The notes under the pieces were generated by a model, which was not told where the DNA came from, ran no database searches, and was given only the letters and a program-made list of their open reading frames with translations. A stretch of 35,558 nucleotides of DNA from Verrucomicrobiota bacterium (GTDB lineage Bacteria > Verrucomicrobiota > Verrucomicrobiia > Limisphaerales > SIBE01). This document shows, one piece after another, positions 32,869 to 35,411 of the stretch (position 1 is its first letter; each line of letters starts with the position of its first letter). Both the position numbers and the translations under genes were made by a program. Where the stretch lies: positions 1 to 35,558 of the forward strand of contig JACPRI010000197.1 of NCBI GenBank assembly GCA_016190065.1, written 5' to 3'.

Positions 32869-33111
32869 TTGGCAGAATGCAGTCCCTGACTCGCGATACC
32901 CCGATAAAACCACTCGCTCCAACCGCCGCCATCCTTCCCGTTGCCCGCCTATCGGTTCTTCTTGAATGCTCCATCAAGATTGGTCGCCGGGGAAACGACG
33001 AGATGCCACGAACCCAACCCGCGAAGAGTGAGCGCGGTTGAGCTGGAGAAGCTCTCAAAATTGTTTGTCCAAAAGTCGTGGTTGGCCGGAAGTATTGTAC
33101 AGCCGAAACGA

Positions 33112-33669
33112 ATGTTACTCGATCCAAAGCGCCGGTCCGAGGATCCAGCCGATGCGCAGCAGCGGTTTCTGTCGCTGTTCCTGCGGAGCGAGCGGGAGAT
33201 TTTTCGTTACGTGGCCGCGCTGCTGCCGAACGTGACGGATGCGGAAGACATCGTTCAGCAGACGGCGATTGCGCTTTGGGAGAAGTTCGACGCCTACGAT
33301 CCAAACCAGCCGTTCACGCCGTGGGCCTGCCGGTTCGCATTGAACAAGACCAAACAATGGATCGAACGACGGCAGCGCTGGCAGGCGCTGCTCGAAGGCG
33401 GACTGGCCGAAGAATTGGCGCGGCGCCGCGAGGAGTTGCGGCCGGAGATGGAAGCACGACTGAGGCACCTGGAGGGTTGTCTGAATAAGTTACCCGATGA
33501 GCAACGTTCGCTTGTCGAGGGCTATTACTATCGGCGCGACAGTCTGGATAAGCTCGCAGAGAATTCGAGCCGAACCATTGCGGCCACTTACAAAATGCTT
33601 CAGCGCATTCGGCAGGCGCTGCAGGTCTGCATTGAGAACGCGGCTAAACCGGAAGGAGCTTCGTCGTGA
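33112..33669 (+). CDS. ECF-type RNA polymerase sigma factor
   Basis: A 185-residue sigma-70-family factor of the short ECF type. Region 2 includes FLRSEREIFRYVAALLPNVTDAEDIVQQTAIALWEKFDAYDPNQPFTPWACRFALNK, with the DAEDIVQ helix that contacts the core enzyme. Region 4 is LPDEQRSLVEGYYYRRDSLDKLAENSSRTIAATYKMLQRIRQAL. This belongs to the planctomycetal/verrucomicrobial group often followed by a FecR-type membrane protein, and that is the arrangement here: its TGA overlaps the GTG start of the FecR-LamG gene. It probably directs transcription of envelope or polymer-degradation genes in response to that partner. ATG 33112 is the first Met with conserved sequence; the open frame goes back to 32941. 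Confidence 0.92.
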   Translation: MLLDPKRRSEDPADAQQRFLSLFLRSEREIFRYVAALLPNVTDAEDIVQQTAIALWEKFDAYDPNQPFTPWACRFALNKTKQWIERRQRWQALLEGGLAEELARRREELRPEMEARLRHLEGCLNKLPDEQRSLVEGYYYRRDSLDKLAENSSRTIAATYKMLQRIRQALQVCIENAAKPEGASS

Positions 33670-35411
33670 AGATCGCGTTTCCTTCACCCGAATTCGACGA
33701 CGCAGTGGCGGCGATCTGTCACGGCACAACGTCCGACGAGCAGGCGCAAGCATTACACGGGCTGCTGCGCAGCGACGCCGCCGCGCGCGACGAATACATA
33801 ATACGCGTCGAACTCCATTCGCGACTGGCGTCGGAGCCGGACCTGTTCGTTTCAGCGGACGCCGACGAGCAGGCGCTAGCCCGTAGCGCAGGTTTCCAAC
33901 CTGCTGTATCGCAGATTTCCAATCTGCGGGCCTTGGAAAATTGCAGCGCCTCTGAATTGTCGGACGCTCTGCCGAATAGAATTAGTCGCTACAGCAGATT
34001 GAAAATCTGCGCTGCGGCGCTGCGGCGCGCGCGGATTCGAGAATCTCCTTGGATTCTGGCGCTGGCCGCGTGCGTTGTGCTGCTCGCAGGCGGATGGTGG
34101 GCGCTGCGATTCTCAAATTCGAGCGAGCGGAAGGGCGCGACCAGCAAGGCCGTGGCGATGCTCAACCGCGCTGTGGACGCTCAGTGGAATCTGCGCGATG
34201 AAACGCCGCGCTTGGGAGCGCCACTGGAGCCGGGTTCGGTGCGGCTCAATTCAGGTTTGGCGCAAATCGTTTTCTACAGCGGCGCACGCCTCGCGATCGA
34301 AGGGCCGACGGAACTTCAGATCATTTCTTCAAGCGAAGCTTCCTGTCGCAACGGAAGACTCATGGCCGAGGTTCCGGCGGAAGCGCGCGGTTTCCGCATG
34401 CGCACTCCGCAGATGAACGTGACGGATCTTGGCACGGCGCTCGGTCTCGAGGTGAAGGCGCGCCGGACAGAGCTGCACGTGTTCAAAGGCAGCGTGGAGT
34501 TCCAACCGACTGGCAGCACGACAAAACAGAATGTGAAGGAAGGCGCTGGGACGGTGATCGAAAGTTCGCGCGGACCGCAACTCATTGCCGCCAATCCGGC
34601 CGCGTTCGCGTCGTTGTTCGACCTGCAGGCGAAGTCATTGGTCGCCGAGGCGTTGCGATATGATCAGTGGCGTGCAGCCAGCCATCAACTCAACCAAGAC
34701 CCCTCTCTGCTTGTGCATTTCGATTTCGATCAGGCGGAGCCGGCAGGCTGGCGTTTGCACAACGCGAGCAGCCGAAGCGACATCGCGCCCCACGGAACCA
34801 TCGTGGGCTGCCGGTGGATCGAGGGCCGCTGGCCGGACAAGCAAGCGCTGGAGTTCCGCGGGGTGAGCGATCGCGTGCGCCTGAGTGTTTCCGGCGAATA
34901 CGAGTCCCTGACACTCGCGGCTTGGGTGCGCGTGCAGGGATTGGATCGCCAGTTCAATTCGCTGTTTATGTGCGACGGCTTCGAGGCGGGGACGCTGCAC
35001 TGGCTAATTCGCAAAGACGGTGTGTTGGGGCTCACCGCGATCGGCGCAGGTTCGGGTGATTACCAGATCGTGGCCAGTCCCTCCGTGCTCACGCTCGATC
35101 AATACGGGATGTGGGTGCATTTGGCCGTCGTGCTCGACGGAAATGCCAAGCGCGTGGTGCATTACGCCAACGGGCAAGCGTTGAAAGAGAAGACGCTGAA
35201 ATTGAACCGTCCCTTCCGCATCGGCGTGGCGGAGTTGGGCAATTGGAACGCCAGCGGATTTACTGACAACCATCCTTGGCTCATCCGAAATTTCAGCGGC
35301 GCGATGGACGAATTCTGTTTGTTCAGCCGGGCGCTGAACGCCGACGAAATTCGCGCGCTGTACTCTGCCGGCAAACCGCAATCTGATCCGCTCGCGCAAA
35401 ATCAGCACTGA
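33666..35411 (+). CDS. FecR-domain and LamG-domain membrane protein (putative sigma regulator)
   Basis: A 581-residue protein from a GTG that overlaps the sigma-factor stop (GTGA). Residues 1-60 are a short cytosolic helical part like an anti-sigma N-terminus. A transmembrane segment follows at about 130-149 (LALAACVVLLAGGWWALRF), then a FecR domain (about 183-280, with LAIEGPTEL and MNVTDLGTALGLEV). A LamG/concanavalin-type domain comes last (about 345-575, HFDFDQAEPAGWRLHN and MDEFCLFSRALNADEIRALYSAG). The architecture suggests a cell-surface sugar-sensing regulator that controls the sigma factor; this is inferred from gene order. Residues ~72-118 are the translation of a REP-like repeat (33883-34016), an in-frame insertion between the cytosolic part and the membrane segment. 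Confidence 0.9.
   Translation: MKIAFPSPEFDDAVAAICHGTTSDEQAQALHGLLRSDAAARDEYIIRVELHSRLASEPDLFVSADADEQALARSAGFQPAVSQISNLRALENCSASELSDALPNRISRYSRLKICAAALRRARIRESPWILALAACVVLLAGGWWALRFSNSSERKGATSKAVAMLNRAVDAQWNLRDETPRLGAPLEPGSVRLNSGLAQIVFYSGARLAIEGPTELQIISSSEASCRNGRLMAEVPAEARGFRMRTPQMNVTDLGTALGLEVKARRTELHVFKGSVEFQPTGSTTKQNVKEGAGTVIESSRGPQLIAANPAAFASLFDLQAKSLVAEALRYDQWRAASHQLNQDPSLLVHFDFDQAEPAGWRLHNASSRSDIAPHGTIVGCRWIEGRWPDKQALEFRGVSDRVRLSVSGEYESLTLAAWVRVQGLDRQFNSLFMCDGFEAGTLHWLIRKDGVLGLTAIGAGSGDYQIVASPSVLTLDQYGMWVHLAVVLDGNAKRVVHYANGQALKEKTLKLNRPFRIGVAELGNWNASGFTDNHPWLIRNFSGAMDEFCLFSRALNADEIRALYSAGKPQSDPLAQNQH
33883..34016. repeat. GTAG-headed REP-like triplet inserted in the FecR-LamG gene
   Basis: Three hairpins share 7-bp arms and 3-nt loops: GCAGGTTTCCAACCTGC (33888-33904), GCAGATTTCCAATCTGC (33911-33927) and GCAGATTGAAAATCTGC (33994-34010). 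The first is headed by GTAGC at 33883. The third is in the opposite orientation and is followed by GCTGC, the complement of GCAGC, so the outer units are an inverted pair. Arm differences (GG against GA) are matched on both sides, which keeps each stem paired. The element is translated in frame. Confidence 0.82.

Follow-up and report, generated by a model that had tools for sequence, protein, structure and literature searches.

A REPIN-like mobile element predicted to be read in frame within the linker of a FecR/LamG membrane protein in a Verrucomicrobiota bacterium

We analyzed a 35,558-nucleotide stretch of DNA from a Verrucomicrobiota bacterium (hereafter the window; contig JACPRI010000197.1 of assembly GCA_016190065.1) and found a short palindromic element inside the reading frame of a membrane-anchored FecR/LamG protein whose gene adjoins a sigma factor gene. 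The element is very probably a non-autonomous mobile element of the REP type (REPIN), inserted into the cytosolic linker of this protein. The family to which it belongs behaves as a REPIN tied to one clade of REP-associated tyrosine transposases (RAYTs).

To describe the element we used a covariance model of 17 copies, 15 from the same genome, including the window copy, and two from other genomes. The window copy, itself one of the 17 rows, matches the model with 126.2 bits (E 1.1e-35) and 115.1 bits (E 3.0e-32) on the two strands, while the window contains no match to Rfam families at their gathering scores. In the family, the unit reads CGTAGC, hairpin 1, YGTATC, hairpin 2, spacer, hairpin 3, GATACR, hairpin 4 and GCTACG, over about 136 bp. 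Hairpins 1, 2 and 4 of the window element each form a perfect 7-bp stem with a 3-nt loop, their letters being GCAGGTT TCC AACCTGC, GCAGATT TCC AATCTGC and, in inverted orientation, GCAGATT GAA AATCTGC. A first-pass annotation of the window had described a triplet of hairpins of one family, one of them inverted, with matched arm changes, at 33883–34016. Those three hairpins are real and fully paired, and the matched changes recur as local arm covariation in the sets of 17 and 58 copies described below. The element has a fourth hairpin, however, which escaped that reading because it has decayed, and the roughly 130-bp region was placed one base short of the full unit. The predicted product of the element is 45 residues long, RSAGFQPAVSQISNLRALENCSASELSDALPNRISRYSRLKICAA (RSAGFQPAV...SRLKICAA). 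The features are listed in Table 1.

Table 1. Positions in the window of the host gene, its neighbor and the parts of the REPIN-like element.
Feature	Position	Strand	Basis
Host gene, 581-aa FecR / Laminin_G_3 membrane-anchored protein	33666..35411	+	FecR residues 198-278, Laminin_G_3 413-562; orthologues
Upstream sigma factor gene, part of frame starting at 32941 or later	33112..33669	+	Sigma70_r2, E 7.2e-12
Membrane helix of host protein, residues 127-149	34044..34112	+	Hydrophobic stretch; helix in AlphaFold2 model
Whole REPIN-like element, 135 bp = 45 codons	33882..34016	+	End-to-end covariance-model match, both strands; nhmmer
Left tag CGTAGC = GTAG tag of REP	33882..33887	+	Kept in 17-row alignment and own copies
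Hairpin 1, GCAGGTTTCCAACCTGC	33888..33904	+	7/7 pairs; family covariation
Second tag TGTATC	33905..33910	+	17-row alignment
Hairpin 2, GCAGATTTCCAATCTGC	33911..33927	+	7/7 pairs; family covariation
Variable spacer between the two inverted halves	33928..33970	+	17-row alignment
Hairpin 3, decayed, 5/7 pairs	33971..33987	-	Alignment position matches hairpin of other copies
Inverted second tag GCTACA (family: GATACR)	33988..33993	-	17-row alignment
Hairpin 4, inverted, GCAGATTGAAAATCTGC	33994..34010	-	7/7 pairs
Right tag GCTGCG (family: GCTACG)	34011..34016	-	17-row alignment

The GTG start of the host gene overlaps the stop of the upstream gene for a sigma-70 region 2 protein. In the host protein, the element follows the N-terminal helical region and precedes the membrane helix, as had been proposed, though not exactly so: about 11 residues of the linker on its N-terminal side and about 9 on its C-terminal side do not derive from the element. 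An AlphaFold2 model, built from 14 sequences that included 13 of the 19 readable orthologues (L156 was omitted owing to a stop in the reference), places helices between residues 8 and 72 and a long helix at residues 127–149, coinciding with the hydrophobic segment. All residues from 53 to 127 have a pLDDT below 50. This hints that the linker holding the element may be disordered, a faint signal given the poor overall model (mean pLDDT 59.6) and an insert without aligned relatives.

Comparison with orthologues indicates that the linker was expanded in the window lineage. A scan of genome contigs returned 22 loci, distributed over Verrucomicrobia, Chthoniobacteraceae, Pedosphaera, Limisphaerales MAGs and one Planctomycetota. 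Twenty of them were aligned (L155 and L157 were dropped as partial or distant) and 19 were readable, L150 being dropped for its unreadable N-terminal frame. Measured from the DLF motif to the membrane segment, the linker spans 23–37 residues in all 19 readable orthologues versus 65 in the window protein, and 45 of these 65 residues are the element. None of the 19 carries the element in its linker, and a search of all 22 loci with the element model (nhmmer) found no copy anywhere. The exact empty site cannot be drawn, since linkers vary between orthologues and the closest orthologue of the host protein is about 70% identical. The earlier proposal that a mobile repeat had lengthened the linker with the frame unbroken is thus borne out by the linker lengths, by the dispersal of the family and by its tie to a RAYT clade; a linker conserved at this point in all orthologues, the outcome that would have spoken against it, was not found.

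The predicted RNA fold of the element is strong (-60.1 kcal/mol, z -6.55), as is expected of any such palindrome, and the 421-nt region around the start codon and the element folds with a z of -3.21. The first-pass annotation had placed this potential mRNA structure just after the coupled start, a position that did not hold up: the element begins 216 nt (72 codons) past the GTG at 33666, and a direct effect on initiation is therefore not indicated. An effect of the element on the host gene through mRNA structure is possible from the folding predictions. We accordingly weighed whether the window copy has been put to use, its mRNA hairpins or the longer linker tuning the amount or response of the regulator. 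Both z values and the full pairing that persists in three of the four hairpins would agree with such a role. Against it, any element of the family would fold in this way, one hairpin has decayed, the element lies far past the start codon, and it is confined to the window lineage among the readable orthologues; we consider a role of this kind decidedly unlikely.

Copies of the element are numerous in the genome of the window. The hairpin pattern GCAGRTTNNNAAYCTGC has 90 sites in this 5.56-Mb genome, and the same pattern read backwards has none, so the hairpins are not due to chance. The covariance model gives at least 150 matches on both strands (150 of 3303 candidates were scored), and after fetching their surroundings we counted at least 80 distinct copies; the genome search for such units that had been suggested with the first description therefore revealed a dispersed family. 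Beyond this genome, the element matches at E <= 1e-6 in 25 of the 40 genomes searched, its own included. The most frequent length is 136 bp (36 copies), and the length is divisible by three in 22 of 74 near-full-length copies. These 74 copies, left after setting aside six partial model matches among the 80, form the basis of the junction count and of the average number of open frames. The family displays the features of REPINs: a GTAG-type tag, CGTAGC, outside hairpins 1 and 4 that is conserved in the 17-row alignment and in the own-genome copies; inverted REPs with a spacer as the repeated unit, matched at full length on both strands; and high copy number with dispersal, for which 80 copies is a lower bound. 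The two tandem hairpins on each side, evident in the 17-row alignment, are a variation on the REPIN unit.

The pairing of the hairpins is maintained by covariation. Among the 17 copies, 97.7% of stem cells hold standard pairs, against 86.0% in shuffles, and double-sided arm changes number 51, against 13.9 in shuffles; when the partner is slid by one to three columns, pairing falls to 26–42%. We further compared local pairing with pairing across the whole element in 58 own-genome copies (22 of the 80 were left out as partial or outside 134–138 bp in length, and copies were not set to one polarity). Local arms pair in 94.8% of cells, counting Watson-Crick and G-U pairs, versus 76.7% for end-to-end pairing over the same columns, and at the variable stem positions covariation is local and does not extend across the element. 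Because local arms covary and the end-to-end arrangement does not, it is each tagged hairpin that is kept, as expected if a protein were reading the hairpins one by one. End-to-end pairing was rejected as a conserved structure on the same grounds, and the long end-to-end stem drawn by the energy model probably arises as a by-product. Hairpins 2 and 3, the inner pair, are almost always unlike each other, and at stem position 32 about 2 of the 58 copies show standard cross-element pairing; owing to this difference the element, though symmetric in layout, has a polarity.

We then searched for a transposase partner. The general Y1_Tnp family has two matches in the genome of the window, and the element lies beside neither of them, so these genes were rejected as the mobiliser. 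The genome G003, from the same family, has a Y1_Tnp gene bordered on each side by a copy of a longer stretch containing the element, and the TAA stop of this gene is provided by the tag variant CGTAAC. NCBIfam identifies this gene as REP_Tyr_transpos, a REP-associated tyrosine transposase (NF047646, 101 bits, cut-off 80), and the RAYT reference gene also matches PF01797 above the cut-off. H158-x-H160 and Y219, which we take to be the catalytic tyrosine, are conserved in the alignment in both flanked and unflanked RAYTs. The search covered the relatives and 293 genomes of the order, and flanks were scored at 54 loci, including the best 30 places order-wide. The element adjoins the gene in all 20 of the best RAYT matches, on both sides in 19 of them; the remaining one (L271), close to a contig edge, is flanked on one side. 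The other 34 RAYTs scored all lack element flanks. A tree was built from 42 of these loci (the other 12 of the 54 were left out as short or distant), and in it the flanked RAYTs occupy one side of a branch with support 99/98, and they have N-terminal residues in common that are absent from most others.

The search recovered no flanked-clade RAYT from the genome of the window, a 68%-complete draft, where the best match has 47% identity over a part and is unflanked, nor from the congeners G001 and G002, which hold many copies of the element and whose best matches, at 55–57% identity, are likewise unflanked. The gene may have been lost, it may have been lost in assembly, or a more distant RAYT may be acting.

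The element could also be an ordinary MITE moved by a DDE-type insertion-sequence transposase, the RAYT neighborhood being secondary. Its size of about 136 bp and its inverted symmetry are compatible with this, as is a larger repeat with inverted ends that carries it in G002. MITE movement is nevertheless very unlikely: a target-site duplication (4–9 identical bases at both junctions) is present in 0 of 74 own-genome copies, covariation preserves single tagged hairpins and not end-to-end pairing, and the element divides the RAYT clades perfectly. The larger repeat in G002 is about 250 bp long, with the inverted ends TTACTG...GACGACA and TGTCGTC...CAGTAA, and the element is nested within it at L122–L134. 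It seems to have multiplied the element in that genome. Identical copies in G002 were rejected as a sign of recent REPIN movement, since those fetched lie within this larger repeat. In the genome of the window, a subset of copies (L059, L073, L076, L079, L080, L086, L089, L092, L097 and L103) shares longer flanks, TTTAGCG..TCGGCCTTCGA before the element and CTAAACA.ATAC after it, or the reverse, and is probably another nested unit.

The draft state of the genome (472 contigs, 68% complete) raises the question of whether a repeat was wrongly joined into the host gene during assembly. Such an artefact is highly improbable: within a single contig, the host frame is unbroken to either side of the element, and both flanking parts align to orthologues. 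The length of the element is below that of a typical read pair, and it has hairpin variants of its own, the exact hairpin 1 occurring once in the genome. A further reading, in which the palindromes would belong to the gene family as a conserved protein linker or RNA switch unrelated to mobile DNA, would suit their in-frame length of 45 codons; it is contradicted by the 19 readable orthologues that lack them and by the 80 copies elsewhere in the genome, and was rejected as having almost no likelihood.

For the REPIN interpretation, we propose the following course of events. Two tandem GTAG-tagged hairpins, a spacer and both units again in inverted orientation would make up the REPIN. A RAYT of the flanked clade would cut and join single-stranded copies without target duplication and so spread them, and one copy would have inserted into the unstructured cytosolic linker of the FecR/LamG protein. 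This copy would have survived because its 135 bp amount to 45 codons with no stop in frame and because the linker is unstructured. The insert would now be read as 45 residues of flexible linker, and it is probably near neutral for the protein.

Few copies in this genome lie within recognizable genes, as judged without systematic gene calling, the window copy being intragenic. When ten own-genome copies with a spanning frame were examined with Pfam, seven of the frames had no match, and these seven were not counted as in-gene insertions. Judged by homologues, two own-genome copies are inside a gene: the window copy and that of L006, whose host is a membrane protein carrying a spermine/spermidine synthase domain. 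Eight of nine L006 homologues have a different, variable linker at this place; the ninth could not be aligned across the loop. In the congener G001 (L225, G001:C705), the element lies in a loop ahead of a membrane segment of a protein that, from reading its sequence, appears to be an apolipoprotein N-acyltransferase. The element is absent from the L225 homologues of G006 and, more distant, G038; in the homologue comparison for L006 and L225, L284 was not comparable over the loop. In the congener G002 (L291, G002:C240), the loop that holds the element in L225 contains another translated repeat (...PHPSSGHPLPLGGGEGRGEGE...), and an element copy at 649–787 of that locus is outside the aligned part of the frame. 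The window, L006 and L225 proteins read the element in the same frame, with the tag read as Arg-Ser.

Several further loci have open frames through or next to the element. At L061 (G000:C338, element at 1501–1636), imuB-like and dnaE2-like parts share a single open frame that runs for 1043 aa in the locus and is joined through the element and a second translated repeat (...PHPGPLPRGEG...). As the element lies between two gene-like parts of one frame, L061 was left undecided as an in-gene insertion. At L008 (G000:C11) and L063 (172–291, G000:C76), the element directly precedes an N-terminal methylation motif and its open frame includes the motif; the hosts are two near-identical prepilin-like proteins. 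L135 (G002) was left out, because its element falls towards the N-terminal end of a long frame and translation may start downstream.

Across the 74 copies, the element has on average 2.81 of six frames open, versus 1.40 (sd 0.12) in dinucleotide shuffles. Among the forward frames, two are frequently free of stops, and the third is open in none of 48 copies, because the tag holds TAG in that frame. This high readability may be a side effect of the hairpin sequence and not an adaptation. A bolder reading would be an order-wide, undescribed Verrucomicrobiota lineage of RAYTs and REPINs with two tandem REPs per end, kept readable in about half of the frames, whose in-frame copies membrane proteins would tolerate time and again, and perhaps exploit, as ready-made linkers; we regard this as speculative and rather unlikely.

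The element in the window represents a clean case of mobile DNA predicted to be read as protein sequence, in a linker where tolerance is testable. The split of 20/20 versus 0/34 makes the pairing between RAYT clade and REP design directly testable in vitro. For annotators, peptides such as RSADFQSAV..., VAQ..NLPYRRFAIG... and RYSRLQICAT in such bacteria are probably translated mobile DNA and not domains.

Among known systems, the closest comparisons are with five bodies of work. Like the REPINs with RAYTs described by Bertels and Rainey (2011, PMC3116915), the family consists of inverted REP units with a spacer, is dispersed and has a cognate RAYT adjoining; unlike those REPINs, described there with two REPs per unit and analyzed in extragenic space, its unit has four hairpins, and the window copy is intragenic. 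The transposases resemble the RAYT/TnpA-REP groups 2 and 3 of Corneloup et al. (2021, PMC8266576) in being Y1 transposase relatives with an HUH motif, and the group 3 REPs of that paper are similar to the short, perfect, GTAG-tagged palindromes seen here; RAYT biochemistry is reported there, whereas the clade described here is known from sequence alone, without group assignment. A search of titles and abstract beginnings, with most subscription papers outside its coverage, found no RAYT-REP pair of Pedosphaera or relatives. The enterobacterial RU repeats of Delihas (2007, PMC2759123) are likewise small mobile repeats (103–168 bp) with open frames; they occur at gene loci where the amino acid sequence has been preserved and are likened to MITEs in that paper, and their likeness to our element is one of description. 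The Rickettsia RPE elements, as portrayed in Di Nocera et al. (2013, PMC3733652), are also palindromic repeats in frame in protein genes. The window element shares their behavior in being a repeat that is predicted to be translated and is absent from the orthologous proteins (0/19 readable), and differs from them in sequence and phylum, the two being set side by side by description.

The nearest counterparts are the GTAG-tagged REPs, which Di Nocera et al. (PMC3733652) describe in many phyla, including many in the verrucomicrobium Opitutus terrae, as mostly intergenic, with some translated within ORFs. The same text suggests flexible linkers as harmless sites for REPs and names dnaE2 among the genes hit, and a dnaE2-like part stands beside the element at L061. 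Our family shares with these REPs the GTAG tag, the 7-bp stem, the 3-nt loop, the inverted dimers and the copies in ORFs, a likeness to the 24 families of that paper that is drawn from description and not from sequence. Since GTAG-tagged REPs in reading frames, including those of a verrucomicrobium, are thus already published there, the window element is another example of a known phenomenon. Unlike the REPs described in that paper, it has four hairpins per unit, with a tandem pair at each end, and this four-hairpin layout, together with the sharply defined transposase clade, is what is distinctive here.
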